Part shown: in pieces, positions 1-39,707 of the stretch
Layout: each line of letters opens with the position of its first letter
How positions within the stretch are numbered: position 1 is the stretch's first letter
Origin: Pyropia yezoensis
Lineage: Eukaryota > Rhodophyta > Bangiophyceae > Bangiales > Bangiaceae
Assembly: GCA_009829735.1 (NCBI GenBank)
Contig: CM020619.1
Location: forward strand, 34,202,283 to 34,266,282
Direction of reading: 5' to 3'
DNA: 64,000 bases
Notes under the pieces: generated by a model
What the model saw: the letters and a program-made list of their open reading frames with translations, nothing else
The model's database searches: none
What the model was told of the DNA's origin: nothing
Program-made: the position numbers and the translations under genes

Positions 1-135
1 GCTTCGCACAAAAAAACTATAAGCCGACAAGCAGCTGGGACCGGAGCAGCGCAAGCGTCGATGGTGCAGAAAGTTGTCCACCAGTTGTCACTTACCCATT
101 TCTGCACCCCCTCCACTTCCGCCGGGCCCCGTCCC

Positions 136-7883: not shown

Positions 7884-8104
7884 CCCGGGCGGAAGGGAAG
7901 TGGGGACGAGCGGCCCATTGTCATCTGGGCCCACGCCTGGTCCCGTTTCCTTTCCGCCTACCACACGTGCAGCACGCGGCCGATGGAGGGTCCTCCGCCG
8001 ACCTGTTTGCGTCGCTGATAGTTGACTGGTCCTCGGGACTTCTCGCCGACGGCGCTTCGCTGCTGCTCATTGGAATCTCCGCCACCACCACCGTCGCCAC
8101 CACC

Positions 8105-8640
8105 GCCATGGGGGTGGTGGTGAGCGTAGTGATTGACGTGCGCGGCCAGGATGCGTACGTACGCGTTGAGGACGGCTTTGGACAGCGTGTACGCTGACTG
8201 CTCACCGTGCACGAGGGCCGACAGTGGGGTGGTGCCTGCCGCCACCGTCGTCACGGTAGCTTCGATAGTCGACAGCAGGGTGCGCTCCCCTTGTCAGGGG
8301 CTGCCAGGTCCGCTGCAGCAATCGTCGCTGCAACCGCTCCCGCGTCCGGCATCGCCCCCGCCGCTACCAGTGCCGTCGCTGCACCCCCCCCTCCCTCCCG
8401 CCTGCGGGCGCTTCCTACCCCCCTTCTCCCCCGTCTGCTGCTGCGGCGGCGGCGGCCGCCGCCACCGCCGCCGCCGCTGCCGCTTCGGCGCCCGCGGCAC
8501 CGCCATCGGGCGCCACCCGCAGCGTGGTGGCGAGAAATTCCAGCTCCCCATCTCCAGACGACACCACCACCAGCCGCGGGTCGGCGGACCGGCACAATGC
8601 CGGCAAGAGCGCGGCCACCACTGACCGGGTGGCATACCTG
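8105..8640 (-). pseudogene. Internal fragment of the SDR (carbonyl-reductase-like) gene
   Basis: On the minus strand this interval matches the central part of the SDR gene found intact at 30430-31851. It begins at the VVAALLPAL segment (8615-8625), continues through LVVVSSGDGELEFLATTLRV, and after frame breaks through TPLSALVHGEQSAYTLSKAVLNAYVRIL to NHYAHHHPHGG near 8110. It lacks the N-terminal TGANRGLG dinucleotide-binding half and the C-terminal part. Similarity stops abruptly at about 8640 and 8105. The YxxxK catalytic pair survives, but the frame is broken in the Ala/Gly-rich middle. It is best read as a dispersed partial duplicate. Confidence 0.78.
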
Positions 8641-10451
8641 ATGTTTGCATCCTTCGATCCGCTCGCACAGGGAGCACATGTGGCAGGTCACCACCCGCCT
8701 GACCCGCGTTGATGCGTCACAGGTGCCCGGGCCGCCTGTTTACGTCGACGTTGGACGTGCGTCGCTGTGGCACGCGTCGACGCCGGCGCAGCGCGCCTGC
8801 TGGTCGTCATCCAGCTCGACGGGCCGCTGACGTCACAGTGGTGATGCTACCCGCGCAGGGCTCACTGCTGGCTGATTGACCTGCATAAGGCCTACGGCAG
8901 CGGAGAGCGTTATGGCAGCGGCGAGCCGTTCGGCAGCATCGCAGTTGGTGACAACAGTGGTGGCAGTAGTGCTTCCGACGCCCGCGGCCTACGAGATAGT
9001 GGCGGGCGACGGTACAACATTTCGTCAAGCGGTGAGAGCATCCCGCCCCCCTCCCTCCCTTCGCTGCCTCCGTACGTAACTCTCGCAGAGGCCACCCGCA
9101 CCCTCATGCTCTCGCAGAGGCCACCCGCACCCTCATGCGGTCCACTTCTGGGCGATCCGTGCCCACTGGCGACGGCAGCGTTGGGGACATTGACGAGACG
9201 TTGGAAGAAGTCGCGCTTTGGCCGCAGAACGCGTCCTCGACTGGAAGTGTTTCTGGGCCATCGCTGCAGCGGAGGGACGGCCGACACCCCCGCAGTCCTG
9301 GAGCCCGTGGGCCTGCGGGTGAAGAGGGAGGCGTCGTTGTGATCCCTGCCGCACCTGCAACGCACGCAGCCGCTGCCGGTGCTTCTTTTCGGGGGGGGGG
9401 AAGAGACTTCTGCCCATCGACGGTTGGCAGCGCGGTGTAGTGGTCGCTCGGCGGGACATCTTCGACGGCGCCGCCGGGGGGGACGGGGCCGCCCTGTGGG
9501 CGGCACCGCGAAAGCGGGCCGTCGCCACCGCTCCCTTGCACGCGCGGGGGTGTCGTGGAGAGTTCTGCGCTTGTGACCGCGGGCAAGGGGTGGGCAGCAG
9601 GCCGCAGCGGCGTCCCTGACTAGCGAAGGCAGCGCCAGGCCGCAGGTTGTTGCCCATGTGTACGAGCACGGGGGAAACGGGCGCGGGCCACGAAGACACG
9701 AGCCTGCCCTCACCGAAGCACGCAACCATGCTGCCTTGTGATCGCGACCATTCCGCTTGGATGGTGGTGACGACCTGGCTACAAAAGTGGATAGATGGGA
9801 CGGGGCGGCGCATGGCGCGGCTGTGGGTGGCGCTGCAAAGAGGCGTGCACTGGGGGGAGGACGCGCATCTGGAGGGGCGCGTGATAGAGGAATGCTGCTC
9901 CCACCTCTCTGGGGATCCTAAAGGATATAAACAGGAGAAGAGAGACGGGAGGTAGCGATAGGACAGAGCAACAAGAAGACATCTCCTCTTTTCACTCAAC
10001 CCATGTCGCCCAGTCACCGCGCGTTCCGAAAGTGGGGACGGGCTCACCAGGCGCGTCCCGAGGATGGACACACACAGCGCTACATCAGAGGCACAAAAAA
10101 TGGGAGGGGAAATTCATTTGGGGGGCCAGGGGTAATCCAGTAATCGAGAGCTCGCCAGTCAGGCTGATCACACGCCGCCTCGCCACACTCAACTCGAGCC
10201 GGAAGACGAGAAAACGGTGGCTGCTTGTGAAGATATCAGTGTTACACCCCCGCCATCCCCGGAGAGCCAGCCACCCGTTCCTATCCCCAGTGTCGATACC
10301 ACCCGAAAGAGCGACGGATTCATCCTCCGCCCCAGCCCCTCGGCATCATCAAATGCTGCATCGACACGGCCGTATCGACGAGGACATCACGGCACCTTCT
10401 GAGGGGGCGGTAACGCCAACCCGTCGAACGTGCAAACCAAGATTGTTTAGA
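8641..10451. other. Intergenic, no gene recognised
   Basis: Several frames are open on both strands (for example minus 9133-10071), but none shows a domain or believable composition. The interval contains a 29-bp tandem duplication (9081-9138) and a TATA-like GGATATAAACAGG near 9922. The 220 bp between the CCA enzyme and the SDR fragment (7884-8104) are likewise featureless. Confidence 0.4.
9081..9138. repeat. Perfect 29-bp tandem duplication
   Basis: The unit beginning TCTCGCAGAGGCCACCC occupies 9081-9109 and is repeated exactly at 9110-9138. Confidence 0.9.
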
Positions 10452-11808
10452 CTATGGCGGCACCACGTCGAGACGGTGGACAACGAGCACATGCCCCCCC
10501 CCCGCCAGCACTCCCGCCACAAACTCGTGGACACTCCCCGCCCCTACCCCTGCCCCCAGCACCCGCAGTGGCGCGGTGCTGTCGAGCACCAACCACCGCC
10601 AGACGCCCGCCACCTGCAGCAACCGGACGGCCAGCCAGTGCGGGGTGGTTCCGAAAAGGCCCCACAGCCGCGACGCGCCCGCGTGGGTGGTGTGGACGAG
10701 CAGGCCCGCAAGGACACCCGTCGGTGGGGGTGGCTCCGTGTCCCTGGTCGGGTGCGGCGGCGGCAGCGGCGGGGGCGGGGGCGGGGGGATGGGGGGAGGG
10801 GGGAGTACCAATGGCAGAGACGACAGTGTGTGCCGCGCGTCGTGCCACCGGAGGGTATGAGGGGGGGACGCGCGCGAGAGGGCGGCAGTGATGACGTTGA
10901 GGTCATAGTTGCCAATAAAGGGGATTGTAGACCTGGGGGAGCGGCGGACAGGAGAGGGGGCGCGCCAAGGAGTGGCCCATCAGGGGACACGCGCCAGCAA
11001 ACCAAGACGAATGGTGGCGACAAAGGACAGCCACCCACAGGGAAAAACGTTAGGGCGCAACTTCCCAAGGAGAGCCATCCAGCATTGAACCACACCACTG
11101 GTGGACGATGCAGCCGCAGCACAGCCACCACCCAATAGGCCGGAAACCGTCGCAACCGACGCCCACCAGACCTGACACGCCCCCCACACCCACCATCGAG
11201 CGCGCACCGGCGGGGACGTACCGATGCGGGTCGGCCCAGCGGGACGGGTTCAGCTCCTCACATATCGCATCGAAGTCCTGTGGCGTCGGCCGCGGTGGCC
11301 GGGGCGTAGCCGGCAGCAGCGGCAGGAAGGGGAATCAGAGGGAGTGACGACGCACCGCCCACCCGCCCGACAAGCAGCCCGGCCATGATGAACGGGAAAA
11401 GAGAGGTAGGACGGGGGTGCGAGACGACGGGCACAGCGACGGCGAAGCACGCACGAAAGAAACAAAAGAGAGAACCAAAGAAGAGCATGTGAACACACGG
11501 ATCCCACCAAGCTGTTGCCAGCCGAGCACTGGGGGCGGCGGCCGCTGACCAGGCATCACAGCCAGCGCACCACCCCGGGACTCCCAACAGCTCCCACCCC
11601 CAATCGCGGGGTGGAGTGAGGGCCCACCCCCCATCGGCGACGGCGCGCGCCCCTCCCCGCCACCCACCCCCCGCCCCACTCTGTCGCAGGCGGTACGTAC
11701 CCGAGCGCTGTATACTGGCCCGCCGAGCAGGTTGTTGACCGCATGCACCGCACATCGCGACAGCTGCTGGCGCTTGTGATAGATGGGGGGGGTGGGGGCG
11801 ACCGCCAT
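10452..11808 (-). CDS. Josephin-domain deubiquitinase (JOSD1/2-like), three exons
   Basis: Exon 1 is 11808-11701, exon 2 11277-11222 and exon 3 10932-10452. Introns of 423 and 289 bp both have GTACGT donors and CAG acceptors, and the joined frame gives 214 aa, close to the usual Josephin-only size. The start MAVAPTPPIYHK leads directly into the domain: YHKRQQLSRCAVHAVNNLL (catalytic Cys19), DFDAICEELNPSRWADPH across exon 2, GNYDLNVITAAL, then TPHWLAVRLL (catalytic His) and WLVLDSTAP (third acidic residue, Asp). Such enzymes cleave ubiquitin chains. A proline-rich loop (about 35 residues) is inserted between the GNYDLNV helix and the catalytic His, which is unusual for the family. All catalytic positions are present and no frame lesion is seen, so the gene is probably functional. 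Confidence 0.88.
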
Positions 11809-12069
11809 GGCGGGCTGCCCCCCCCTCGAGAGGAGATACGAAGGAGTGGGGGTGGGGAGAGGAGGCAATCGGGAGAACGGGTGCCTGACGCGCGCAGCGG
11901 GGCAGGGAACGAGCACGGTGTCCGCCTACCCTGGTCGTGCGTCTGTCTGTGGGGGCGTGGTAGCCCCCCTGTCGGCTGAGAAGAGGCAGCCAATATCGCG
12001 CGGTGCTTGGCAAAGAAGTTCGCTTAGTGTCTATTCTACTGCACTCGAGGCTTAAATGAAGCTCAGCTG
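11809..12069. other. Upstream region of the Josephin gene up to the Ty3 insertion
   Basis: About 260 bp with no gene. It is the probable promoter of the Josephin gene. The Ty3 element begins 267 bp upstream of that gene's start codon, so its 3' LTR could influence expression. Confidence 0.4.
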
Positions 12070-12074
12070 AAACT
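12070..12074. repeat. Target-site duplication AAACT (left)
   Basis: AAACT directly precedes the LTR at 12075 and is repeated at 21452-21456 directly after the other LTR. Five bases is the usual Ty3 integrase stagger. Confidence 0.85.
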
Positions 12075-12543
12075 TGTGGCAAAAACCACTTGCACACACG
12101 GCACCCAAGTTGGGGCGGTGTGATAGGGCTGCCTCCCGTGTCGGGGGAACCGGAAGAAGAGCAAGTCACACACGCTCTGTCCCTGTCGTGGGGCAAACCC
12201 CCCACGGACAAACAAGAGGATGGTGTGTGGTCCAACAGTTTCTTGGTCGGGACGGGGACGCAGGGCCAAGCCCCGCTGTCCCTCCCCTTATCCCCCCAGG
12301 GTCCCCTCAGAATCTCGCCACTCAGAATCTCCCACCCCAGGACCTGCCCACCGGGCCACACGAAAATTCAAGACGATAAATGCAGAAAACCCTCAAATCC
12401 AAGTTGGATTTACTACTAAGCTAACTATCCCAAACTTAGGGAATATGGACCCAAATGCAGGGGGAGGAACGGATCAGGCTAGTGGCCTGCCGCCCCTTGC
12501 ATGGCACGTGTTGCCCCCCTACCTGGGGGTCAATACTGCCACA
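12075..12543 (-). repeat. 3' LTR of element 1 (469 bp)
   Basis: Ends are TGTGG and TGCCACA. It differs from the partner LTR at about 14 positions and contains two of the palindromes described for the whole element (12104-12114 and 12395-12411). Confidence 0.93.
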
Positions 12544-12556
12544 CTCCCCTCTTCTC
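12544..12556 (-). other. Polypurine tract of element 1
   Basis: On the element strand the purine run GAGAAGAGGGGAG directly abuts the 3' LTR, which is the expected position of the plus-strand priming site. Confidence 0.65.
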
Positions 12557-12881
12557 AGTTCCGACCGACCCGGTCGGCCCTGTGAGGGGGTGCGTAAACG
12601 CACGTCTCGGCGTCGGGGGCGCGACTTGCTGTCCCCCATCGAGTACGTAACACGGATGTGGAGGCGGTCACGTTGACCGCCCCTCTCCTCAAGCTTGCCC
12701 ACTCGGCAGCTTGCTCTCCTCAGTTCACACTTCACAATCACCACCACCTCCCCTTTACCTTCCACTGGGCCGCCCCACGCTGGGGAGGCCACCCGTATAC
12801 CCACGATCCGAGTCCCCCTCAACTCGAGGCGGGTCTCGTGCTGCGATAGCCAGAGCGTTTCTTCCCAACTTGGGGAGAGCC

Positions 12882-14825
12882 ATGGCGACTCCGGGAGTGG
12901 AGACGGACTCTCTTGACGAGCGCATGGAGGACACCTCCTACGGGGCAGCACCCGCCGGGACTTCCGGCGGGGGCTCCGCGATCGCTCCGGGGGATGGGAC
13001 TCCCGCGTCACCCGGCTTTGGGTTGACGGCGGGATCTCCCCCGGAGGCGGGACAAGTTGTCCCGCGTGAGGCCTTGGGGCGGTAGTGTTACCCCGCTTGG
13101 CCTCTTTATGAGGAGGGGCTGACTGTTCTTCGCTGTGGCCGACATGGCGCAGCGATGGGCCGGGTATGGGACCGCCTACGAGAGAAGTATCCCCGTAGGG
13201 TCGGGTTCCCGGCCGGCTTCAGGACGGACCAGTTTGCCTTCCTGGACGATGAGGAGGTTGAGGACGTTCAGCGTGCCAAGGCCATGGTGGACCGCGGGGG
13301 AACTATCCCGGGTCCCGGCGACTTGCCGACCTTCACGTGGGACGCTGTGGCAACTCGCCCACCGTACCTCCACGAGGCCGATCCGCACACTCATCACTTT
13401 GATGTGCGGATGGAGAAAGACTTCCGGCGAGGTCCCTACTTGGTGACCTCGGCTCAACTTGAGTTTCCTCAACAGTCTGCTGCCAGTAAGGAGCAGTACT
13501 ATCCGAAGAAGCCCGAGTGGTGGCCTCAAGTTGAGGTCCCCTACGGGTTCCCGGCGTTGTTGCCACGGTTGCTTGACCACTTCGGCTCCGTCATGTTGAC
13601 GGCTGCCCCTGATCACCTGGTGTGGGCCATGTTGGCCACCCAGTGGCTCCTCGAGGTCATGTCGACCTGGGTGTCCTGTGTTCAGCGGCGGGGGATGCTC
13701 TGGCATCTCCCCCTCCGGCTCCTCCAAGGTTTGGAACAGCTCACCCCTCAGCTAGTTGCTGAGGGGTGCTCATCAGGACAACTCACTCTACTTGAGGAGA
13801 TGCTCCGGCTCCATAAGTTTATCGAGTGGGAGAGCATTGAGCACAAGTTGCGCCGCCCCACTCGTGGGCCCAAGGACGATGGCGCACTTCGCCAGTTCGT
13901 GTGGGTCGCTCGTGAACTTCACGACGGCCGTGTGGTCCTACGAGAGGGGTTGGTCATCGGGGACTACCCGTATGCCCCGGGGGTGGATCGCCACACTGCG
14001 CCACCCCCGGACAAGCCCATAGTTATGGCCGTGCCGTCCTATGATGACCATATGACTCAACCCACTGCGGGGGCCCCAAGTCGGGGTCGCAGTTACACCC
14101 GGGTACCGCCACCTCGGCGGGCCCCTCCGCTTCCTCCTGTTCCTTTCCAACCTCACGGGAACATCCCGATCAGCGTGGCCGTGGAGTCTTCCACCCCGGT
14201 GTCCCCCAACTTGGGGGCCACCCTCCTGACGGTATACCCCAAGTTGGTGTTGCCGCCCACGCCTCTAACCTCAGAGATGATGATCACCACGTTGGTGCGC
14301 ACCATTTCCTGGTTGGCCGCGTCGACCGCAACCCTACAGAGCTCCGAGACTCCTCAACTTGAGGAGCGCGTTCGTACTGCAGTGGCCACCGCGAGTTGCG
14401 AGTCGGTGGCGGAGTTTATGACAGCCGAGTTGGCTCGCATTGGGGCTATTATGCCCCAGCCAGCCCCACTTGGGCGTGGCAAACGTCGCGCGAGCCGGGC
14501 ATACTCGCCTCCTCGCCGTCGTCGCCGACACTCTCGGCGCTCTCCCTCCGTGTCGGAAGACGAGTTGTCTTACTCCGTCTCGGAGTCCTCTACCCCGTCG
14601 GAGACGGAGTCTGTCCAGCGTCTACGTCGCAAACTTGCGCGCAAGACCAGGCAGAAGAGTGGCCACGGTCGGCGCCACTTGCGCGACCGTGAGGGGCGCG
14701 ACGGTTCCGACTTGGAGCCGCCGCCCCCTCCAACGAGTGGAGACCGTTATCGGCGTGGGTCTCGCCGCTCGCCTCCACGGGAGGGCGAGGGCCGTGGAGT
14801 GGGAGAGTCTAGCATGCGTGCCTAG
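12882..14825 (+). CDS. Antisense reading frame of the Ty3 element (SR-rich protein, internal TAG)
   Basis: This frame runs opposite to gag-pol, between the end of pol and the 3' LTR. From an ATG in good context at 12882 (MATPGVETD) the frame is open to 14825 except for one TAG at 13083-13085. The next in-frame ATG is 13155, which gives 556 aa. The first 67 residues are Gly/Ala/Pro/Ser-rich. The middle (about 13.2-14.0 kb) is predicted helical with Trp/Leu-rich segments (PALLPRLLDHFGSVMLTA, LVWAMLATQWLLEVMSTW). A Pro-rich linker follows, and the C-terminus is Arg/Ser-rich with RRRRRHSRRSPSVSEDE and further RS/RE dipeptides. I recognise no family. The same frame is open in element 4 (62999-64000) with only two amino-acid differences noticed, which argues that it is maintained. 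It could be an accessory or nucleic-acid-binding protein; this is inference. Confidence 0.6.
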
Positions 14826-14936
14826 TTGGCAGCTGCCTTTGTTGTGAGAGTGTGAGGGTTAGGGCTGTAGTTAAAAGCCACTCTGCGTACCACTTCGACT
14901 TGAAGCACTCTCTTGGCACTGTTGCTCGGCCTTCCC

Positions 14937-17900
14937 TCACGTTGAGGGAGGGCTGTTAGGGTCTATCTCATTCCGGGCACAGTACGCCCGGACCTTCTCA
15001 GCGGGAAGGTCCTCCACATACTCCCACGTATCATCCTTGGCTTTGTAGCCAAACCCACGCACCCTCAACATGAGGCGGTCAGTGTCTTCATCCCATCCGT
15101 GGTCGATGAACTTATCGAACACGTACTCCTGCGGGCCCTGTTTGGCCGCAGGCAGTGAGGGGAGGCGCCACGCTTCCAAAGCACGCGCCCAAGCTGGGTC
15201 GCCTGCAGGCGGTGGTGCAACTTTGACTACGTCCTGTCCGTTCACTGTGCGGACCCCATCGTCACTTTCGATGGTGAAGCGCCGCCCATCAGTACGAAGG
15301 ACCTGGTACGGCCCCTTCGTCTGGAATACCAGCTTACCCCCAGTTGGGGTGTGCGAGTGTACCAGCACCCGGTCACCCTGCTCGGGGACATGTTTAGCAT
15401 TGCGCACCTTTTTGTCAAAGGTACGCTTGTAGCGCTTTTGTGCCTTGTCCATCTCAGCCCTGACTTTAGGGATGAGGTTTTCAAGCCTAGCGGCGAACTC
15501 CGCCTTACTCTCAGTGGGAGTAGGCGTACTGCCACCATCCTCCCTAGTTGGGAGCGACCGCCGCACGGCAATAGACCGCACGCGACGGGGGGTCACAAAA
15601 GCGAGGGGTACTTCCCCTGTAGATGAGTGAACCTGCGAATTGTAGGCAGTAGTAAGGATAGACATGTATTGGTCCCACGTCTTCACGTGCTCACTCACAT
15701 AGTGGCGCAGCTGCCTAACAATAGTCTTGTTGAAGCGCTCCACCTGCCCATTAGTTTGTGGGTGGTAGGGGGTGGCATAGTTTGCCTTAACCCCCAACAT
15801 ATCCAGCACTCCCTGAAACAGTACAGACGCAAATTGCGGTCCATTGTCCAATAGTGTACTGTCTGGGATGCCATACGCGGCAACCCAGTGATCTAGGAAG
15901 GCTGACACGACCGACATGGCCGTGACCTCTGCCAGTGGGATCGCTCGCGTAAGTTTCGTGAAGCGGTCACAGATGGCCAGGAGGTACTGGTTGCCCTCCT
16001 CGGTCACGGGCAGTGGCCCAAGGATGTCCATCGCCAACGCGGCGAAGGGCTCCTTGGCCGGGAACAATAGCATAGCCGTAGTAGGCCGCCGTTCCATCAG
16101 ACGATTCTGTGCACAACTTGTGCAGGCAGCCACCCAACTGTAGATGTCCACCACCATGGACGGCCAGTAGTACCTGGTCCTCAGGGTCTGGTACAGTTTA
16201 CTAGACCCCAGGTGTCCACCCGTGGGAGCGTTGTGCTCCCTCTCAAGGATACTGTCCTTGAGGGATGCGGGGACGACAAGGTTTTCGGTCCCCTGGAATA
16301 CCCCCCTCCTCATGAGGAGGCCATCATCTCCCAGAAAGAAGCGCGTCTCTACCACTGTATCCAGTATATCCCTCTGCGACTTGCAGAAGGGATCCTCGCC
16401 CTGGGCCTTCACCACCTCGTCCAGGGACAGGGGCAAGTACTTCTTGTTCCCTGGCGCCTCGGGGTTCAACGCCTGACCCGAGCGCGTGACTACCCCCACG
16501 ATGGGGATGTCCTCATCGACTGGGTTAGTGTCTAGCCCCCCGGTAGGTACCCGAGAGAGGCCGTCGGCAAGGGCATGTTGCCTGCCTGGTCGGTACTCAA
16601 TGTCAAAGTTGAAGGGTGCCAGTCGCACCCTCCACCGGTTGAGACGAGTGTTCGTACAGTCCGTCTTAAAGATGAACTGCAACGCGCGGTGGTCACAGCG
16701 GATGAGGAACTTCTCACCCTCTGGGCAGTGACGAAGTGACGTCACCGCCCACACCACTGCGAGTCCTTCCAACTCGGTGACTCCGTAGTTCTTCTCGGCC
16801 GAGTTCAGCCCCTTACTGAAGTATCCCACCGGCAAGTACTCCTTGTCCGGCTGCTGCTGAAGCAACAAACAACCAAGTTGGTCGTAGCTAGCGTCCACAT
16901 CCAGGATGTACTGGCCTCCCAACCTGGGAATAGCCAAGATGGGGGGCTTCAGCAGAAGGTCCCGAAGAGTCTCAAAGGATTCCGGCTCCACCCGACTTGG
17001 GGGAGGCAGGTTCTTCGGTAGCGTTGAGCTCACTAGCTCATTCAGCGGCTTCGCCACCTTGGCGAAGCCCTTAGTGAAACGTCGGTACACGTTACACATC
17101 CCGAGGAAGCTGCTCATCTGGGTCTGGGTCCGGGGGTACTGAGCCTTACGAATGGCCCTCAAGTTCTTCTCGTTAACACTGAGACGCCCCGGATGGACAA
17201 CATGTCCCAAGTACTCCACCTTTTGAGTAAAGAGGTGGCACTTACTCGCCTTCAGTGACACACCGGCGTCAGCAAGTAGCTTGAACACCTGGCGAAGATG
17301 GCCAATGTGCTCCTCCGGACTTCGGGAGAACACAATGATATCGTCTAGGTATACAAGACAGATCTGCCACCATACTCCGGCCAGAATCATGTCCATGGCG
17401 CGCTGGAAAGTTGCCGGCGCGTTACACAGACCAAACGGTAGACGCTTGCACTGGTAGGTACCACAGTGACAGGTAAAGGTAGTTTTATGCCTGTCCTCCG
17501 GGGCAGTGGGAATTCGCCAGTACCCCGCGTTACAGTCCAGGGTAGGGAACACGTTTGCCTCCCCCAGAGAGTCCAGACAGTCATCCATCCTAGGTAGGGG
17601 ATAACTGTCCTTCACCGTGCTCTCGTTGAGCTTACGGTAGTCGATACAAAACCGGGGGGTCCCATCAACTTTGGGGACGATAACCACCGGACTCGCCCAC
17701 TCGGCGTTGCTGGCCTCGATCACATCGGGGGCCTCCATGCGAGCAACTTGCTCCTTAACGAGGGCCCTTGAACGAGGTCCTCCCCTATACGGTTGTTGGC
17801 GTATAGGGGGTGCACCGGGCTTCAACTCGATCCGGTGTTGGGTGGCTCTCATGAGTCCCAATTGACCATCCCACAACTTGTGATATTGGTCCAAGAGGCG

Positions 17901-18920
17901 TTCAACTTGAACCCTCAACCTGGGGGGGACACCCTCCATGTTCACATGGGGTCGAGGAGAGGCGGCCGACTTGGCTTGATGCTTCTCCTTTCCGGACTTC
18001 GGGTCGCTACTTGCGCCCGCGTTGAGGGTGACCGCTACTACCGGTCCCTCGTGTTGGTCGATATAGCCGAACTTGGCTCCCGACTTGAAGTACTTGGGCC
18101 AGGAGCTCAGGTTCATCACCTGGATCCTCCACGGGACTCCGGCTTTGGAGTCCATCGTGCCAAGGGCAACATGCACTTGGTGCTTGCGAGCAAGACGGGG
18201 GTGAAGGTGCACCAACCCGTTCCCCGAAAAATCAGTTACAACGTCAACGTGCGCCACCGAGTTGGGGGGCAACGTGACTTTGCGGGCTAAACGCAGGGTA
18301 GCAGTAAACCCTTCCCTCACAGAGCAAACAGGCTTCGACTGTGAGACTGTCACAGGAGCCACAGACTTTCCCTTACCAAGGATGGGGATAGTCTCCCCAT
18401 TCATCAACTTGACCCAGTACTCGGGGCCACAGATCAAAGGCACTTGTGTTACGACAAAAGGGGTACCCAGAAGCAGGGGTACCGATATATTCTCAACTAC
18501 ACCATAGGTGACGTCGACCTCATGGGTCCCCAACCTAGTTGGTAGGGTCACGGCACCAACGATGGGAAGTACCCCACCATTGATGTCAATCATATGGTCA
18601 GCTTTGGACCTCCAGCGTTGGAGCTTCACCTCCATTGGTAATAGCGACTTGCGTATCAAGGAGGCTCCTGACACGGTATCAAGTACGATACGGGTACAGC
18701 ATGCACGGCCGGGGGCAAGTTGCACCCGTCCAGCCACCTGGAAGTTCTCACCCGTCAGCACCGCGATGACCCGACGCGGGTTTACGTTCTGGGGGAGTCC
18801 TACCCGAGGTGGGCGGACTCCCTTAGGTCGCCGCAGTATCCGGCACGGTTGGTTCGTCCTCCTGACCCACTTGGCCGAGGCTGCCGTTGTGAGCTTCGGA
18901 CGGCCAGCTCCAACGGTCAT
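14937..18920 (-). CDS. pol: Ty3/gypsy Pol polyprotein (element 1), 1327 aa
   Basis: A single open frame that starts with the ATG overlapping the gag stop. Domains by approximate residue: aspartic protease with LDTVSGAS at 80-87 (the usual DTGS is DTVS here, so protease may be impaired), reverse transcriptase 395-560 with CIDYRKLN and the YLDD catalytic box near 523, RNase H from about 670 (ILDVDASYDQLG), and an integrase zinc finger near 893-930 (His-His-Cys-Cys). The integrase core follows with catalytic Asp in AMDILG, Asp in LDNGPQF and Glu in VERFNK (about 963, 1023, 1060). A C-terminal chromodomain (EYVFDKFIDHGW...DTWEYVEDLP, about 1263-1310) would direct integration to marked chromatin. 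It replicates the element through a cDNA made from genomic RNA. Confidence 0.93.
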   Translation of the reverse strand: MTVGAGRPKLTTAASAKWVRRTNQPCRILRRPKGVRPPRVGLPQNVNPRRVIAVLTGENFQVAGRVQLAPGRACCTRIVLDTVSGASLIRKSLLPMEVKLQRWRSKADHMIDINGGVLPIVGAVTLPTRLGTHEVDVTYGVVENISVPLLLGTPFVVTQVPLICGPEYWVKLMNGETIPILGKGKSVAPVTVSQSKPVCSVREGFTATLRLARKVTLPPNSVAHVDVVTDFSGNGLVHLHPRLARKHQVHVALGTMDSKAGVPWRIQVMNLSSWPKYFKSGAKFGYIDQHEGPVVAVTLNAGASSDPKSGKEKHQAKSAASPRPHVNMEGVPPRLRVQVERLLDQYHKLWDGQLGLMRATQHRIELKPGAPPIRQQPYRGGPRSRALVKEQVARMEAPDVIEASNAEWASPVVIVPKVDGTPRFCIDYRKLNESTVKDSYPLPRMDDCLDSLGEANVFPTLDCNAGYWRIPTAPEDRHKTTFTCHCGTYQCKRLPFGLCNAPATFQRAMDMILAGVWWQICLVYLDDIIVFSRSPEEHIGHLRQVFKLLADAGVSLKASKCHLFTQKVEYLGHVVHPGRLSVNEKNLRAIRKAQYPRTQTQMSSFLGMCNVYRRFTKGFAKVAKPLNELVSSTLPKNLPPPSRVEPESFETLRDLLLKPPILAIPRLGGQYILDVDASYDQLGCLLLQQQPDKEYLPVGYFSKGLNSAEKNYGVTELEGLAVVWAVTSLRHCPEGEKFLIRCDHRALQFIFKTDCTNTRLNRWRVRLAPFNFDIEYRPGRQHALADGLSRVPTGGLDTNPVDEDIPIVGVVTRSGQALNPEAPGNKKYLPLSLDEVVKAQGEDPFCKSQRDILDTVVETRFFLGDDGLLMRRGVFQGTENLVVPASLKDSILEREHNAPTGGHLGSSKLYQTLRTRYYWPSMVVDIYSWVAACTSCAQNRLMERRPTTAMLLFPAKEPFAALAMDILGPLPVTEEGNQYLLAICDRFTKLTRAIPLAEVTAMSVVSAFLDHWVAAYGIPDSTLLDNGPQFASVLFQGVLDMLGVKANYATPYHPQTNGQVERFNKTIVRQLRHYVSEHVKTWDQYMSILTTAYNSQVHSSTGEVPLAFVTPRRVRSIAVRRSLPTREDGGSTPTPTESKAEFAARLENLIPKVRAEMDKAQKRYKRTFDKKVRNAKHVPEQGDRVLVHSHTPTGGKLVFQTKGPYQVLRTDGRRFTIESDDGVRTVNGQDVVKVAPPPAGDPAWARALEAWRLPSLPAAKQGPQEYVFDKFIDHGWDEDTDRLMLRVRGFGYKAKDDTWEYVEDLPAEKVRAYCARNEIDPNSPPST

Positions 18921-20863
18921 TCGCTTCCCGCCGACTTGGCGTCCGACTCTGAGGGCGGGGAGGAAGACGACGAGTCCGAGGACGACGTGTCCGCCTCCTC
19001 CGCCGAGGGTGTGGCGACCGCAACGACCGGTCGAGACCCACCCTCGCGGCGTGAACGTACTTCGCTCGTAGCCGACTTTTTACTCGCATTCCTAACAAGT
19101 TGTTGGATGCGTTTACTCAACTTGGGGCAATCATATGCCCAGTGACCATCGGAGTTGCAGTTCCAACACCGATGGTCCGGTCCGGGAGGAGTCTTCCCAA
19201 CTGGGGAAGACGAAGGGATACCCTGGGAAGTTCCCACGGCAGCTACCACCCTCTCCTTGCGGATTCGGCGTGCCTCGCTCAACTCTCTGGCCTGGCGCGC
19301 CTCCTCCCGATCCTTGGCCAACTCGGCCTGACGCTCCTGGCGTTGTTCCTCCCGCAACTTGCGGTAGGCCTCGCCTCTGCGATAGGCGAACCTGGCCAAC
19401 TCGGCCAGGGTCGCCCGGGCAGTGTTATGCTCCCGGGTCTCCATCCGGACTGACCAATGGAGTCCCTCCACAAACCGACTCTTCACCACAGCTTGTGGAT
19501 GAAGAAAGCCACAAAGATTGTTGAGCTTACGGACTCGCTCCGCAAAGGACAACTCGTCCTCCGCCTCTTCCTGATGGGCTTGCGTAAACTCCTCGACTTG
19601 AGAAGCCAACGCTGCCTCATCAACCATGGCTCTCAACAACCAGTTGACGAGCTCCAAATAGGACGTCACCTCCCCAGCGCCTCCACTTGAGGAGCTGGGC
19701 ATGACGGACATAAGTTCTGTCCGTAGATCGCCCTTCGTAAGCTCCTGTAGCATGTAAAAAGCCATGCCTTCACTTATGGCATTGTCGTCACAGGCTTTTG
19801 TGAAACGACGTAGGAACTCAAAGACACGGAGGGGGGGAGTTCCATCCCACTCCGCTTTGTGCCCAAAAGAATGAAGTGCATTCTTCTTGGCACGGCCCAT
19901 GGCTCGGGCCTGGTCAGGACCATACGCCACCGACTTGTTGTGGAGGGCGTAGGTCTCACAGTCAAAGATCCTCTGGTAGACCGGGTTGGCTACCTGGATC
20001 TTGGGCGGCACCTCACCTTGAGGGAACAGCCGCTGTGGCACTGGGGTAAGTTCACCCTCAGTGCCTGTAGTCCGGCGCGGCGCGCTTGGTGTAGCCGCCG
20101 GCGTTTCCGGGGGGAACTCCCCCATGAAGGGCGTACGCCCCACCGAGTATGGTGTGGCTCCCTCGTTGGGAGTCACAGGTGTCGCCCCCTGTTCGGGGCG
20201 ACCAGAGATAGGCGTAAGGGGGGATTCCCCCTGCGCCTGCGGGCTCGAAAGCCCCAATCCGGTTTGGACATTAAGACCATCTGGCAAACTCGCCACAATC
20301 TGATTCAGAATAGTATTCGTCATCGTGACCACCAGGTTCGGCAAAGTCTGCCGCAACACATTGGTCGCCTCCCGACGGACAGTTTCCGCGAGGAGTGGAT
20401 TGACGACTCCAGTTGAGTCTCGGTCCGCCTCCGGGAGTCCACCTGAGGGGTAACCACGTTCCTCAGGGGTCTCAACCGGGGGCATGGGCGCGAGCCCATC
20501 GCCGACCAACGGAGGTCCGCCGTCCTCCGAAGGCCTAGTTGGCGACGGCTCCAAGCCAAAGTTGGCTCCAACCCGAGTGGAACCCGCGGGGACAGTCCTC
20601 ACCCCTTGGGACGTTCCCGTTGAGTATACCACACGGTGGCCAGACTTCGGTCCACCCACATCAGAAGTGTCACCCGAGTGAACTCCCGACTGAGTCGGGG
20701 TGGCCTGCTGCCCGCCCGTACTTCCAGTCCTGCTGGCTTGAGGGACCTCCAGTCCCTCTGCGACCCCAGGTAAACCCACCTGTGTCTCACCAGTATTCAA
20801 AGGCACTGAAGTACGTGCGTCACCCGTGTACTGCCCGGACGACGGGGGGTCCGAGCTAGCCAT
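18917..20863 (-). CDS. gag: Ty3/gypsy Gag (element 1), CCHC zinc knuckle
   Basis: I chose the ATG at 20863 (MASSDPPSS, context AACATGG) over one eight codons upstream at 20887; the product is 648 aa. The N-terminal 250 residues are Gly/Pro/Thr-rich and probably disordered. The capsid-like helical part spans about 290-520 (ending KSRFVEGLHWSVRMETREH), then comes a charged coiled-coil-like stretch rich in EER and EAR. The nucleocapsid motif is CWNCNSDGHWAYDC, a CX2CX4HX4C knuckle. The C-terminus is Ser/Asp-rich. The stop TGA shares four bases with the pol start (ATGA). Confidence 0.92.
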   Translation of the reverse strand: MASSDPPSSGQYTGDARTSVPLNTGETQVGLPGVAEGLEVPQASRTGSTGGQQATPTQSGVHSGDTSDVGGPKSGHRVVYSTGTSQGVRTVPAGSTRVGANFGLEPSPTRPSEDGGPPLVGDGLAPMPPVETPEERGYPSGGLPEADRDSTGVVNPLLAETVRREATNVLRQTLPNLVVTMTNTILNQIVASLPDGLNVQTGLGLSSPQAQGESPLTPISGRPEQGATPVTPNEGATPYSVGRTPFMGEFPPETPAATPSAPRRTTGTEGELTPVPQRLFPQGEVPPKIQVANPVYQRIFDCETYALHNKSVAYGPDQARAMGRAKKNALHSFGHKAEWDGTPPLRVFEFLRRFTKACDDNAISEGMAFYMLQELTKGDLRTELMSVMPSSSSGGAGEVTSYLELVNWLLRAMVDEAALASQVEEFTQAHQEEAEDELSFAERVRKLNNLCGFLHPQAVVKSRFVEGLHWSVRMETREHNTARATLAELARFAYRRGEAYRKLREEQRQERQAELAKDREEARQARELSEARRIRKERVVAAVGTSQGIPSSSPVGKTPPGPDHRCWNCNSDGHWAYDCPKLSKRIQQLVRNASKKSATSEVRSRREGGSRPVVAVATPSAEEADTSSSDSSSSSPPSESDAKSAGSE

Positions 20864-20962
20864 GTTGGCTGACGATCCGTATGACACGGTCCAAGACCAC
20901 CGTTCCTCTGAGACAGAGGGCCCCCTACACCCGGGTGCACCCGGAGGTAAAGTTTACCTCTG

Positions 20963-20982
20963 TCCCCTGCTGCTCCACCTAA
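20963..20982 (-). other. Primer-binding-site region of element 1
   Basis: On the element strand the LTR end is followed by TT and then AGGTGGAGCAGCAGGGGAC. A TGG-initiated match to a tRNA 3' CCA end would start two to five bases after the LTR. Element 4 reads TTTGGTGGAGCAG at the same place. The priming tRNA cannot be named by eye. Confidence 0.4.
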
Positions 20983-21451
20983 TGTGGCAAAAACCACTGG
21001 CACACACGGCACCCAAGTTGGGGCGGTGTGCTAGGGCTGCCTCCCGTGTCGGGGAAACCGGAAGAAGTGCAAGTCACACACACTCTGTCCCTGTTGTGGG
21101 ACAAACCCCCCACGGACAAACAAGAAGATGGTGTGTGGTCCAACAGTTCCTTGGTCGGGACGGGGACGCAGGGCCAAGCCCCGCTGTCCCTCCCCTTATC
21201 CCCCCAGGGTCCACTCAGAATCTCGCCACTCAGAATCTCCCACCCCAGCACCTGCCCACCGGGCCACACGAAAATTCAAGACGATAAATGCAGACAACCC
21301 TCAAATCCAAGTTGGATTTACTACTAAGCTAACTATCCCAAACTTAAGGAATATGGACCCAAATGCAGGGGGAGGAACGGATCAGGCTAGTGGCCTGCCG
21401 CCCCTTGCATGGCACGTGTTGCCCCCCTACCTGGGGGTCAATACTTCCACA
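20983..21451 (-). repeat. 5' LTR of element 1 (469 bp)
   Basis: Same termini as the other LTR. It should carry the promoter and polyadenylation signals of the element, although I see no clear TATA box inside it. Confidence 0.93.
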
Positions 21452-21456
21452 AAACT
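21452..21456. repeat. Target-site duplication AAACT (right)
   Basis: Matches the left copy. The same site appears reversed (AGTTT, 39703-39707) beside the LTR in the middle contig. Confidence 0.85.
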
Positions 21457-23190
21457 CAAATGAGGCTCGATCTGGGTCGTAAAAAACGTTGATTTTGGCC
21501 ACTCTGAACGATTACACGGCAGAACAGGAGTCTACAACAGAACGAGACTGCATCCTTTGGACGTCGAAAGCCCTGCGAGCCCGCCGCGCGTGACCGGGGG
21601 GCCAGCGGAGCCGAAGGGGATAGCTCCCGCCGCGGATGGTCAGCCAGAGCGGTTCCGTTCTAGTGTGCCGCGCCGAGGCGCGGTCTGTGCCGCCTGTGAG
21701 GCAGGAAGGTGGACGGACGACCGGACCCGTCCCGGCGTCGACCTAAAAGAGGCGCCCACAGGCCGCGTCGAGCCGCTCGGCCTGCCGCCCTGGCCGCGGA
21801 GAACCTATCTATCGGTACCGTCGCCGCGTCCCCCTTCGGCCCTGGCTGTGCCGTCTGGCCCCGAGCGACCGCCTCTAGCACGAAGCGTTCCGCTTTGCTT
21901 CCCCCGCTTTGGCCACAGCCCCCGCCCCTCTGTCGGCAGCGCCCAGCCTCAGCACTCCTCCTCATCCCCTTCCTCCCTCTCCCTGCTGCTTGGAACCCCC
22001 CGTGACCATAGCTGCCGGCCGCGCGGCCGGCGGCGCGGCTGTAGTCGCTGGCATCCCATTCTTCTCGTCGCAAGCATTGGGCTTTTGCGGCACCCTTCCA
22101 ACACCCTACCAGGCGCCGACGACCGCTCACTCGCTTCCTGCTCTCATCGCCCCCGCCCGCCTTCGTTAGCTGCGACGCCTGCGCAGTCAGAGGGGACGAG
22201 AGCCACCGAAGAGAGGCTTTAGTCAGAAGGCCCCCACTGACCGTCCTGACCGCCGGCTTTATCGCTTTCATTGGACGCTCAACGGCGGGGGTGGTGGCGG
22301 GGATGGCAAGCTTTCTGGAGGCGCGGACTGTGGCCATGGCTGCGGCGGAGGCGGCACCCGGCGCGGACGCTTCGCCTACGACGCGTACTCACGAGCTCTT
22401 CCCGATGGCGGCCGCCTCTGTAAGATCCACCCACACCGGGACATCTCTCAACGTACTCTTGATCGAACCCTTGACTTTGAACAGCAATCCAGTGCAGAGG
22501 TTGGGGAAAGGGACGGGGTTGTGACGGTGTGAGTTCAGGAGAAGGTGATGGGGAAGAAAAGGTGACTGGAGTGAGGAAGAGGGTGGTGTGACGTCGGTGG
22601 TGGTCGGTGAGTGGTACATCGGTAAAAAGCTCTTTATCTGTGTCTGTGATCGCGTCTTCCTCTTCATGCCGAAGCGGCTACTGGCTCACATGACTTACCC
22701 GCAGCAGGGCACCGAAGGTTCCCCTAAGCATGCGTTTACCCGTCGTGCCACAGAGCGGCACCAGACGGCTCAAAAACAAAGAAAGGGCGAGCGCACACAT
22801 TGTGTAGCTCCGAAGCATTCTTGACGGGGTGTCTACCAACAGATACAGAATCTACATACGTGCACAAATGCCGTGCTCCGGGTCGAATTACCCGTCGGCC
22901 GGCGGGTTCATCATGTGACTGTGGCGGTTGTTGGGGCCCCACCCCTGCCCCTGAGGTTGCCACGCTGGCAGAGCGGCGGGCCGGCCATCGCGCGGAGAAA
23001 GGGTCGCCTGACCAGTTCCTGACGAGATGGGGCGGAAATGGTTTTTCCCAAAGGGTTTTCCCTGAAAATCCAAATTGTCTCTAACAACATTATTTTCGCA
23101 TTGGAGGGAACATTTTCGCATTGGAGAGTTAGCAATTGGAGGGCGTAGTTAGCACGAGGGCTCGCGGGAGCGGGGCTACTTCTAGTGGCT

Positions 23191-23238
23191 CACGCCAGCG
23201 GCGTGACCGGCGGGATATCAGGGGCACCCCGGTGCCCC
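23191..23238. other. Two adjacent hairpins
   Basis: CACGCC-AGC-GGCGTG at 23191-23205 and GGGGCACC-CC-GGTGCCCC at 23221-23238. Both are perfect stems. The role is unknown. Confidence 0.5.
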
Positions 23239-25861
23239 TCCTCCTTGCCGCCTTCTAAAATCAACTGTTTCCTTGGTATCAACCCTCCCCCGGGCACAGC
23301 CATCTTCATCTTGTATCCCGCGTAGGGACAGGCGGGGTTGCTGGAGAGACTCCTGGTCAGTTCCTTCGGTGGTTCATCACTGAGGTTTCACAAGGGGAAG
23401 ATCAGCACGGGGTTCTACGCTATTTGTGACGGCGATACCGTTTCAGTGACCAGTGGCTACCGTGGGGCCGGTCCTGCGTGGTCCGTCGATAGTGGACCCT
23501 CCAGTTACCATCCGATGTTGGCAGACACCAGCGGGCGTGCTCGCGATTACGCCGCATACGTCCTCTAATTAGTGGCTCGGACTCGTAAGGTGAAGTCCCA
23601 ACCATAGATTCTCTGGGTGTCCGAAAGGGTCTTTTCGGAACGAATCTTTACAGCCTCGCTGTCACACGCGCGGCTTTCGCTAGTTGAGCGCCCTGCCGGC
23701 CGCCGGGCGCCGGGCGTCGACTGTGCCTCTCGGCCGCTGGCACAAGCCCGACTATCTTCATAGCACACGCAGCAGCAGGAGGAAGCGAGGCCTCACAGGC
23801 GGCGGCCGCGCCTGCGGCCGCGGGCTGCAGATAAGCGGCGGTGGCGGCGGGCTTCGCCGCCGTCGCCTCCGCCTACCGCTCCCTATCTCTTCACGCCACG
23901 CCACCGGCGTCAATGACGCTGGAGCTTGCCGCGGCTCCGCCGGCTCGTCGCGCGCGGCTGGACGAAAGGCTTCACCCCATGCGTTCTTCCTCCCTTGCGT
24001 CTTAGTTGGACACATTATGTTATTCAATGAGAAGGTCGACTCATAGGAAACGGAAATTGTGAAAGCAATAACAGACAGAACACAGCTGCAAATCAAGTGT
24101 GGCACGACTGGAGCCGCACGTGAATCACACGTGTCCATGAGGGAGTTGTGGAACACCAACTCGCTACTCCAGTGTTGAGTCAATGACATGAAAAACGTAC
24201 GAAGAGCGGTGCGTTTCAACCTGGGGGGCACGGCTCCTCAAAGCGAGACCCCCGACGCGCATGCCTCAAGCCCGCCGTCGCGGGATCGCTGTTCACGACC
24301 GATCGGGCCGTCCTTCTGGTATAAAGGATTGAAATCAAGAAGGGGGAAGTGGGAACGACCGCCCGACTGGGGGATAAGAAGAGCTAACGCCGATATGGAA
24401 GGCGAGGGGTAGGAGGGTATAAATGCCAGCCGATCTGTAAAGTCTGACAGCACGCACGCACGCGCGTACTCGCGCACGCACGCCGTGCAACCCTACGCAC
24501 ACTTCGCACGGTACACTCGCAGGAAGGAGGAGACGCACAGGTGTGGTACCGTGCGGATGATGAGGAAGAAGAAGGGTTTGGAGAGTGAGGGTACACCGTG
24601 AATGTGAGTTCAACGTCGAGGGGTCGGTTGTTCTCCGTATGATGGTCTTGTCGTGGCGTTTTGGCCGCCAGTTGCAGGCAGGCCCTCGCGCTGGCGATTC
24701 GGGACCCGGTTGGCCAGGCTACGTTGAGCTTGTTGTTCGCCGGGGCCCGTTGATTGGCGAATGACAGGGCGCCAATGCCCCCTCCCGCTGATTGGCCCGC
24801 TCAGAAAGGCGGATCCACTCCGGGAAGGAGGGGTGGCTTCCCCCATTTTCGTCTTGTTTCCATGTTTTCATGGCGTGTTTTCGTGTCTTTCCCCTTCTTC
24901 CCACGAGGGTTTTTTCGGGGATAGGCATCTGTGCGAGGGAATGTTCTCGTATGCTTTTCGTCTACTACTACAGTACGCGGATAAACTTCAGCTCCTCCCC
25001 AGTTGTTTTCCGCGGCAGAGAATTCATCGCACGCACATGGCCGAAGCATTGCCACGTGTCGCCCTTACCCTGGCCCAGAACTCCCTGCATCGAAAGTCCA
25101 CGAGACGAAATTACTGTGAGTCGCGCAAGAATTACCTACCGCGTTCATGTGTCGAAGCTGTTACGATGAACCGGGTCTGCCCAACCACGTGGGCACACCG
25201 TATTTTGTGACCTGCAATAGTGCCATCTTATTCGACGCCGACATATCCCGGAGATGACCTTGAATTTACCGATGAGAGTTACGCGACATCGTTCGCGATC
25301 TCCCGCGTCTTCCCGCGCAGGGCACCGGTGGGAACGACCGGCGCCCTTGGGCACTGTAAGGATTCCTCAAGGTTCCCCAAGGGAAATTGGAGTGCGCTGA
25401 GTCTGTTTGCATGGCCAAAAAAAGACCTTTAGTGAAGGGAACGCACGCAGAATGACCACCGAAGATGAGCTTCAATTGAGGCGCTGAAGTTCAAAGGAGG
25501 CTATCACTAGAATAGACACTAGTGCGAACCTCCGAAGCCCATCCGCCCAGCGACGAGCTGAACCTTCAAGCGGGCAACCGTCCCATTTGTCATCGATGTG
25601 ACGTCGCGGCTCCTGAGGGCGTGATTTCCTTTTCGACTTTCGAGCACTGGATTTAAATTTGATGTTCCAAGCGAAAACATAAGTGTGTGTGACGTCACAA
25701 TAGCCAATCAAACGAAGGTATGTTCGCGTTCAGTTGTTAGGACATAGCTAACACGTGGGCTATCCTTAGATCCGCTACTGCGACGGCTTCCACAACTCAT
25801 CAAGTATGCAGGAATGTGACCGGTTGTTGACTTCGAGGGAAAACCACCAATAATTGCACGT

Positions 25862-25937
25862 TCCTGGCGGCCACAGATCGCTCTGTGGCAATCACTCAGC
25901 CAGAAAGCCCTGTTTCGGCTTCTGGATAGCTCCAGGA
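25862..25937. ncRNA. Candidate structured element (three-way junction)
   Basis: The outer stem TCCTGG (25862-25867) pairs with CCAGGA (25932-25937). Inside are two hairpins. GCCACAGA-TCGC-TCTGTGGC (25870-25889) is a perfect 8-bp stem. The other is CCAGAAAGCC (25900-25909) with GGCTTCTGG (25917-25925), one bulged A and a 7-base loop. The same structure is kept in the reversed copy near 35240. The transcribed strand and function are unknown; it could also be part of a decayed DNA element. Confidence 0.3.
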
Positions 25938-26507
25938 CATCTTGGAATTTATTGAGCCGGCCTCTGATTGGGATTGCTGATGACTGGGCTGACGCACAAT
26001 TGAATTCTTTAGCGTTACATATTCTTCAGTGTTGTCTTGGCCACGTTGTTGGTATGATAGCGAGGAACTCTCTCAGGGCAAAACCAGCAACATTCACTGA
26101 AAGCCTCCCTCTCGGTCTGGGGCTCCCGTTGATGTTCCGTCAAAGAGAGACTCCTGTTTCTTCTGCGGGGTGGAGATAGGCAGGAGATCGTCCGCGCAAC
26201 GCAGCGGCGTGTGTCATCGGCGCAGGCAGTCGTCCTTTGGGAGGAGCGAGAGGGCAAACCGACCGCCGCTGGTGGACGAGGGAAGAGATGGGGAAAATGG
26301 GACAGGCAGGCGGTTATCGTGAGAGATGGCAGCGGGGACGACGTGTCTTCTGAGTCTTGCTCTCTATCCTGTTTATTCCCGCCTTGTTGTCCACCCGACA
26401 ATCTTGGTTGCCAGCAGAGGTGGGGGGGGGAGGAGGGTGACAATGACGGAGTCCTCCTCGGACCCTCCGTCCCTCTCCCCCCCGATGCGTGACCATGCGC
26501 GCGCCGA

Positions 26508-29279: not shown

Positions 29280-29359
29280 TCACCAGGCCAGGCGGTCACG
29301 GTCACGCCAAAACCCCCAGTCGGCACGCCCGCCCCCCCCTCCATCAACCACAGTAGCCC
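29280..29359 (-). CDS. 3' end of the SDR gene, cut by the assembly gap
   Basis: Encodes the last ~26 residues (GLLWLMEGGAGVPTGG, then a charged end) plus the stop, in the same relation to lysyl oxidase as in the middle contig. The rest of the gene should lie in the gap and at the start of contig 3. Confidence 0.8.
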
Positions 29360-29859: not shown

Positions 29860-30137
29860 GACGCCGCCACCCTGTTCGATTTATTGGGAAGAGGACTGAA
29901 ACGTTTTTGTCACAGTATCAGGCGGTGTCCGGCACAGCCTTGTACTCGCCAATGAAAAAGTGTCTAAGCAGAAACTGCTAACGTCGCTTCACATGGTCTG
30001 TGCATTTTATTGACAAGCACAATAGCATTCGATGTGTCTCCGGTTCTTGTTTCGCAGAAGCCATTGGCGCGCCGTCGTTTCGCATGCATGAATTAGATCG
30101 ATATGATTAAGTGGAGCACATTCGACAGGCCTCTCCC

Positions 30138-30145
30138 TTTTTATA
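30138..30145 (-). promoter_or_regulatory. TATA box pointing away from the SDR gene
   Basis: Minus-strand GGTATAAAAAGGG, about 290 bp upstream of the SDR start and oriented outward. The counterpart in contig 3 is at 45108-45115. Confidence 0.4.
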
Positions 30146-39702: not shown

Positions 39703-39707
39703 AGTTT

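Follow-up and report, generated by a model that had tools for sequence, protein, structure and literature searches.

Dispersed hairpins of a family-specific loop class in Ty3-type retroelements of the red alga Pyropia yezoensis

How a retroelement distinguishes its own RNA from that of its relatives in the same cell is an open question. The window, a 64,000-nt stretch of Pyropia yezoensis contig CM020619.1 (assembly GCA_009829735.1, positions 34,202,283 to 34,266,282), contains a Ty3-type long terminal repeat (LTR) retroelement, element 1, along which a first-pass annotation, made from the letters alone, had noticed dozens of short hairpins with a shared loop. What are these hairpins, and what could maintain them? 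All positions are those of the window; elements 3 and 4 are partial copies within it, and L-numbers denote sampled stretches, families or copies.

Hairpins with an A-S-T loop core are concentrated in the element

All eight hairpins quoted in the first-pass annotation were found at their positions, with the one placed near 13317 starting at 13316, and the pattern is stronger than was claimed. The sequence GGCCAACTCGGCC is present additionally at 19394 and 54422. These hairpins, and one that adjoins the zinc knuckle of gag, are:

13047–13065, GCGGGAC-AAGTT-GTCCCGC
13316–13328, CGGC-GACTT-GCCG
14350–14366, CTCCTC-AACTT-GAGGAG
15540–15554, CTCCC-TAGTT-GGGAG
16110–16124, TGCAC-AACTT-GTGCA (counterpart in L023, TGCGC-AAGTC-GCGCA, with A-T changed to G-C)
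17900–17912, GTTC-AACTT-GAAC
19193–19209, CTTCCC-AACTG-GGGAAG, adjoining the zinc knuckle
19316–19328, GGCC-AACTC-GGCC
19352–19364, CCGC-AACTT-GCGG

The seven-base core CAA(C/G)TTG starts 22 times within 12104–21312, as had been estimated, with 11 starts in each orientation; four of the 22 represent two sites that are each present in both LTRs. The symmetry extends by at least one additional pair in 20 of the 22 and by at least two in 17 (about 19 had been proposed). Dinucleotide shuffles of the same interval yielded 1.22 ± 1.17 cores (maximum 6, n = 300), close to the single chance occurrence that had been assumed, compared to the 21 that lie wholly inside it.

We defined the A-S-T motif as a central A-S-T (S, C or G) whose flanks pair at offsets ±3 to ±6 but hardly at ±2, that is, stem (4 or more bp)-N-A-S-T-N-stem. 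Positions 12075–20982 contain 53 such hairpins, compared to 1.22 ± 1.09 in dinucleotide shuffles (maximum 6, n = 300). Their centres range from 12403 to 20952 with an irregular spacing (mean, 164 nt), and the longest gap, 861 nt (16839–17700), lies over the reverse transcriptase (RT) region. Hairpins with a 5-nt loop and at least 4 pairs number 128, and AGT or ACT is at the centre of 53 (~4.6 expected). Comparison of all 64 central triplets, using three pairs, shows that AGT (45/159) and ACT (31/157) stand out, the next best triplet being 3/36. Among loop sizes, 1, 3, 5 and 7 were the most strongly enriched (with 4 pairs, 128 vs. 42 for loop 5, and 57 vs. 42 for loop 4); loop 6 with 4 pairs (75 vs. 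40.5) and loops of 12–15 nt were also raised. There is a small asymmetry within the loop, with a purine at −2 in 67 of 76 cases and a pyrimidine at +2 in 47 of 76, which is absent from L023 (29/37 and 30/37). The loop type of element 1 is thus fixed, but it reads N-A-S-T-N rather than being the one constant pentaloop of the first-pass annotation; other Ty3 families have tetraloops or triloops whose sequence is free. Complementarity in element 1 shows a second shoulder at loop sizes 12–16, and in L023 it covers a broad range of 5–18, which may reflect longer stems that contain internal loops.

This density is confined to the element, as had been claimed. The four host stretches of the window contain 4 (vs. 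1.2 expected), 1, 1 and 0 A-S-T sites. In twenty 10-kb samples of the genome, 19 had 10 sites in total outside element-like sequence (~17 expected for those samples as a whole), and the 20th, L023, had 16 and represents a second hairpin-bearing family; only element 1-like sequence and L023 exceeded expectation among the random samples. Nor is the pattern a property of mobile elements at large, given that a loop peak is missing from all of the stretches sampled, four of Copia and four of DDE_3. A modest general excess of hairpins was found in the Copia stretches L079 (51 vs. 35) and L080 (59 vs. 41), with folding z-scores of about −1, and in the DDE_3 stretch L085 (22 vs. 12). The hairpin excess in L010 is due to a tandem repeat, and this stretch was dropped. 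A scan of viral contigs for relatives found none.

The hairpins are independent of the coding frames

The layout of element 1 and of the related copies is as follows:

12075–21451, minus strand, element 1, a Ty3-type LTR retroelement bearing the hairpins; LTR pair 97% identical; Pfam matches to RT, RNase H, integrase and CCHC on the minus strand
12075–12543, minus strand, 3' LTR, repeat pair with 20983–21451, TG...CA ends
20983–21451, minus strand, 5' LTR, repeat pair with 12075–12543, TG...CA ends
12070–12074, left copy of the target-site duplication (TSD) AAACT
21452–21456, right copy of the TSD AAACT
18917–20887, minus strand, gag open reading frame (ORF), 656 aa, CCHC zinc knuckle at ~19121–19168
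14937–18920, minus strand, pol ORF, 1327 aa; RT ~17199–17678, RNase H ~16611–16913, integrase ~15639–16274
13155–14825, plus strand, antisense ORF, 556 aa, between pol and the 3' LTR
50059–56557, minus strand, element 3, partial, 93% identical, with 22 A-S-T hairpins outside the LTR
56558–64000, plus strand, element 4, partial, 97% identical, with 38 A-S-T hairpins outside the LTR

This layout corrects the strands of the first-pass annotation: gag-pol is encoded on the minus strand, and the plus-strand ORF is the antisense one. The TG...CA LTR pair and the RT-RNase H-integrase order are those of Ty3-type elements (Metaviridae). The TSD is short and fixed, 5 bp in the 4 elements (of 15 tried) in which both outer ends are readable. 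A 20-base piece of element 1 has 780 exact copies in the genome, of which 389 lie on one strand and 391 on the other. Element 1 is a high-copy Ty3-type element. The sequence GGTGGAGCAGCAGGGGAC adjoins the 5' LTR (20961–20982; L063–L078) and is common to the families of element 1 and L011, of which it is likely to be the shared primer-binding site; no tRNA was matched to it. A search of Rfam over 11000–22500 gave no match.

In shuffles that preserve the encoded protein (1000 each), the number of A-S-T hairpins was far below that observed, in pol (18 vs. 1.36 ± 1.14), in gag (13 vs. 0.76 ± 0.86) and in the antisense ORF (14 vs. 0.61 ± 0.77). Synonymous-codon shuffles of L011 (pol, 36 vs. 3.45 ± 1.67; antisense ORF, 35 vs. 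5.99 ± 2.30) and of L088 (18 vs. 4.31 ± 1.88, and 10 vs. 1.64 ± 1.27) gave equivalent results, and codon bias is thereby ruled out as the cause in all three. The sites use all three codon phases, evenly in pol (6/6/6). Together with the conservation of stems and loop core in copies of element 1 described below, the excess over codon shuffles and the use of all phases uphold the proposal that selection acts on a foldback structure independently of the frame.

Loop class differs among Ty3 families

L023 is 65% identical to element 1 in pol (tblastn; 67% over the aligned piece) and ~30% identical in the antisense ORF. It contains 24 A-S-T hairpins, and its larger loops are also enriched in ACT and AGT (33 vs. 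12 expected, loops of 3–12 nt). Among 9 sites of element 1 and 8 of L023 that could be aligned, a single one, at window position 16117, is shared. Sites thus come and go while density persists, which implies that many copies of one shape count, rather than particular positions.

In the more distant L011 family (pol identity 45%), 3 kb contain 35 tetraloop hairpins with 5 pairs (3.5 expected) and a free loop sequence; parts of L026 and L021 resemble L011 in having tetraloops. A profile search of genome contigs with the four-family pol alignment identified two relatives, L087 and L088. The latter, on a contig of a Robiginitomaculum metagenome-assembled genome (MAG), presumably a eukaryotic contamination, has triloop hairpins (27 vs. 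4.1); L087, on a MAG contig of Moorena, has no elevated number of hairpins in its coding part. No loop peak was found in the Ty3 stretches L012, L018a (of the L012 family) and L021a. Loop class is therefore specific to the family: about 4 or more bp with a 5-nt N-A-S-T-N loop in element 1 and L023, about 6 bp with a tetraloop in L011, and about 5 bp with a triloop in L088.

Stems and loop core are conserved, and the structure is strand-symmetric

Mismatches between copies are significantly less frequent at the sites of element 1 (0.0198) than at random centres (0.0432) or at unpaired A-S-T centres (0.0410; 0 of 5000 permutations in each comparison). By position, among the 15 other copies, the mismatch rate rose from 0.013 in the core (0.006 at the centre base) to 0.022 in the stem and 0.045 in the background, with 0.036 at ±2 and 0.035 in the flanks at ±8–14. 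L023, compared to nine relatives, had a rate of 0.013 within ±6 (background, 0.054). In the tetraloop family (71 hairpin comparisons), stems had rates of 0.05–0.12, compared to 0.16 for the background and 0.18 for the loop. As had been noticed, each of the three copies in the window retains the stem of the zinc-knuckle hairpin, CTTCCC-N5-GGGAAG; the loops are AACTG, GACTT and, on the opposite strand, AAGTC. The stems had also been described as covarying. In the strict sense there is little of this: between diverged A-S-T families, 10 cells changed on both sides and remained paired (~2.4 by chance), and near-identical copies show almost no such cases; changes between copies are mostly of a single base.

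Given the outer pairs, the frequency of pairing inside the loop is 0.31 at ±2 in element 1, about the baseline. In L011, the inner two even offsets are at 0.27–0.31 and the next at 0.61; in L088, pairing is 0.54 at ±2 and 0.30–0.36 at ±1. The fall to about baseline within the loop points to foldback hairpins rather than plain palindromes, since a dimer site in double-stranded DNA requires no such drop; plain palindromes are disfavoured because the symmetry is weaker at the loop. Inner pairs are somewhat above the baseline in L088 (21/56) and L021b (up to 0.40). Folding z-scores (every second 200-nt window sampled, 16 shuffles each) for the sense and antisense strands were −2.41 and −2.25 in element 1, −2.87 and −2.23 in L023, −1.67 and −1.98 in L011, −0.28 and −0.22 in L012, and −0.58 and −0.60 in host sequence.

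An RNA helix is expected to keep G-U more than A-C. Counts of the two mismatches were 27 and 25, respectively, summed over elements 1, 3 and 4 (which are not independent), 11 and 9 in L023, 11 and 16 in L088, and 101 and 119 over six stretches (controls, 57 and 64). Between copies they were 18 and 18, and 54 and 64; between families, 8 and 9, 12 and 21, 25 and 21, and 11 and 11. A redundant first count had A-C ahead in most rows, suggesting an antisense-strand bias, which non-redundant counts do not uphold. The equal frequencies between copies bear out the claim that both strands carry the motif. The lack of a G-U preference makes selection look strand-symmetric: the target would be either both strands, with RNA read together with complementary DNA (cDNA) or antisense RNA, or else DNA.

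What could maintain the hairpins

The density, anatomy, family-specific loop length, conservation and coding independence of the hairpins point, tentatively and at somewhat less than an even chance, to dispersed, family-specific structural recognition signals that are selected at high density and serve multivalent recognition of the element's nucleic acid, most likely by its own Gag. Under this interpretation, Gag would bind many copies of one stem-loop geometry on its own nucleic acid, and the hairpins would act like dispersed packaging signals, with a separate assembly address for each family; given the strand symmetry, minus-strand cDNA or antisense RNA may be read in addition to genomic RNA. 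The interpretation in the first-pass annotation is thus supported in part, namely with respect to frame-independent structure, element-confined density and the presence of the motif on both strands; its constant pentaloop is inexact, and strict covariation is thin. A bolder version, which we regard as possible but doubtful, is an element-wide code of self-recognition, in which every Ty3 family of algae and other protists would have hairpins of one particular loop length (3, 4, 5 with A-S-T, or longer) that a protein of that family recognises, such that families in one nucleus sort their own nucleic acid while the loop class changes and sites turn over.

Several observations weigh against recognition by Gag. 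On the sense strand, no test showed a preference for G-U over A-C, and the redundant first count even had A-C ahead. Compensatory changes in the stems of the tetraloop family are not beyond chance (2 vs. 3.3, and 6 vs. 5.2), and several of the 10 compensatory cells in the A-S-T families are reciprocal or LTR duplicates; elements 1, 3 and 4 are likewise related copies rather than independent samples. In L023, unlike element 1, the ±2 positions (0.008) match stem and core (0.012 and 0.021) in conservation. We set the probability of this interpretation slightly lower because of the missing compensatory excess in the tetraloop family and the less clean profile of L023. The three codon phases are used unevenly in gag (6/6/2) and in the antisense ORF (7/6/1), and host stretch 1–12074 has more A-S-T sites than expected (4). 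L011 and L088 share loop length, not loop sequence, within the family; the loops of 7–9 nt in L019b (18, 20 and 21 vs. 8) come with a folding z-score of −0.8, and the 5 hairpins that could be compared with relatives are not conserved; and in L087 repeated CGGCGCC-TTC/TAC/TGC-GGCGCCG hairpins occur in the 3' part alone (6000–7951). Finally, the existence of related families free of hairpins indicates that hairpins are not required for Ty3 packaging in general.

Among the alternatives, a genome-scale ordered structure, that is, compact local folding of the sense RNA and of a putative antisense transcript, for example preventing the two strands from annealing into double-stranded RNA that feeds RNA silencing, would need no specific reader. 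Negative folding z-scores on both strands of element 1, L023 and L011, weaker ones in L012 and the host, strand-symmetric mismatches and the long antisense frames of the same three families are consistent with it; however, it leaves unaccounted for the single loop length per family and the A-S-T core, and relatives of the antisense frame of the hairpin-free L012, compared by frame alone, are also long open. This comparison also speaks against the antisense ORF as the partner of the hairpins, with the proviso that L012's own frame is the shorter one given below. We consider the ordered structure a rather unlikely explanation. Foldback at the DNA level, as hairpins or cruciforms that form in single-stranded cDNA or in a supercoiled provirus and are bound by a structure-specific DNA-binding protein, would agree with strand-neutral stems that do not tolerate G-U, with the use of both AGT and ACT, and with the slight self-complementarity of six insertion-site flanks (over the first four offsets, 10 of 24 possible pairs are formed vs. 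~6 expected). No site has four flank pairs, however, the 5-nt-loop family and the tetraloop family alike have a 5-bp TSD, and four DDE_3 transposon stretches lack a loop peak; none of the six TSDs (AAACT, CCAGC, ATCCT, AGGAG, CCTCT and CCCAG) is N-A-S-T-N, which also leaves a role as integration sites unsupported. We deem DNA foldback distinctly unlikely.

Two further explanations were considered. If unpaired bases mutate faster during replication, paired states could pile up as by a ratchet, and stems are indeed less changed than loops and flanks; such a process fails to produce the conserved A-S-T core of element 1 or one loop length per family, and related families lack hairpins, making it very unlikely. 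Template switching by the RT could create inverted repeats with perfect stems, and at the short-stem sites 13887 and 14469 one arm is changed relative to the copy L009 at 3 and 2 neighbouring positions, respectively. Yet among 1816 comparisons of stems of at least 6 pairs, 1408 were unchanged and 313 differed by one base, and the 6 distinct cases with at least 3 changes per arm all involve the diverged L014; this origin is hardly credible. A kissing-loop network was rejected as well, given that complementarity among the loops of L011, L021b, L026b and L019b is not above expectation. That of L023 is modestly raised (5-mers, 45 vs. 30.3 ± 5.9; 4-mers, 206 vs. 162 ± 16), which follows from the shared motif, because the sharing of identical words is larger (70 vs. 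31.6).

Relation to known systems

In single-stranded RNA viruses and in the pregenomic RNA of hepatitis B virus, dispersed packaging signals consist of many stem-loops with varied stems and a shared loop feature, such as (x)xYA in MS2 (PMC6281560). Element 1 likewise has many stem-loops with varied stems and shares the A-S-T loop motif with L023, but the hairpins described here do not tolerate G-U, are strand-symmetric, in some families share loop length alone, and belong to an algal Ty3 element for which Gag binding is putative. We do not class them among dispersed packaging signals because they lack the G-U preference that such a signal in RNA should show. Genome-scale ordered RNA structure (GORS; PMC9784701) resembles element 1 in that folding energy is below that of shuffles along the element, but GORS is diffuse and has no fixed motif, whereas here each family has one loop geometry and element 1 a conserved loop core; general ordered structure accounts for the folding, not for the exactness of the loop. 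In Ty1 RNA, kissing-loop hairpins have been studied for dimerisation and packaging (PMC5454406); these are located at the 5' terminus, whereas about fifty hairpins are spread across element 1 with no general loop complementarity. No description of comparable hairpins in Ty3 elements came up in a literature search of limited scope.

If the proposed recognition by Gag is true, family-specific loop length, which simple statistics can reveal, would be a readable mark of self and would extend dispersed packaging signals to LTR retrotransposons. Sister families with and without hairpins, side by side in the same genome, provide a natural comparison. Codon choice in such elements may be shaped by structure and calls for caution.

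The antisense ORF and other features of the window

An antisense ORF lies downstream of pol in each of the four Ty3 families compared (13155–14825 in element 1; L023:4499–6991; L011:1256–3763; L012:5788–6711). That of element 1 has no Pfam match, a basic, Arg/Ser-rich C-terminus and one database relative (97%); its AlphaFold model (mean pLDDT 38) was not used, and the L011 ORF is not recognisably related to it. L012's own antisense frame has 309 aa, and its relatives (86–91% identical) are long open, 779 aa being common among 128 scored matches. The plant Ty3/gypsy elements Grande, RIRE2 and Retand carry additional antisense ORFs between pol and the 3' LTR (PMC7264820). The ORF of element 1 is alike in position and in having no known domain, a likeness of layout that does not concern the hairpins.

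Tandem elements with shared LTRs, as produced by unequal recombination, are suggested at G000 C1 ~102700–121000 by two matches 8910 bases apart, with internal sequence beside the LTR. Three Copia RT matches of equal score at C1:23419940–23430694, spaced by 5010 bases, probably form a tandem array. Of the two relatives identified for a host gene, the only one with a name comes from Pyropia vietnamensis, which is consistent with a host of the Pyropia/Porphyra type. In the window, large inverted duplications, 98–99% identical (17976–29359 with 31771–43182, and 29860–31576 with 43683–45393), flank two gaps of 500 N and are possibly an artefact of assembly or haplotype joining. A dispersed repeat of 555 bases has three copies in the window, at 8083–8636, 30976–31531 and 43725–44278, with 87–88% identity to the first.

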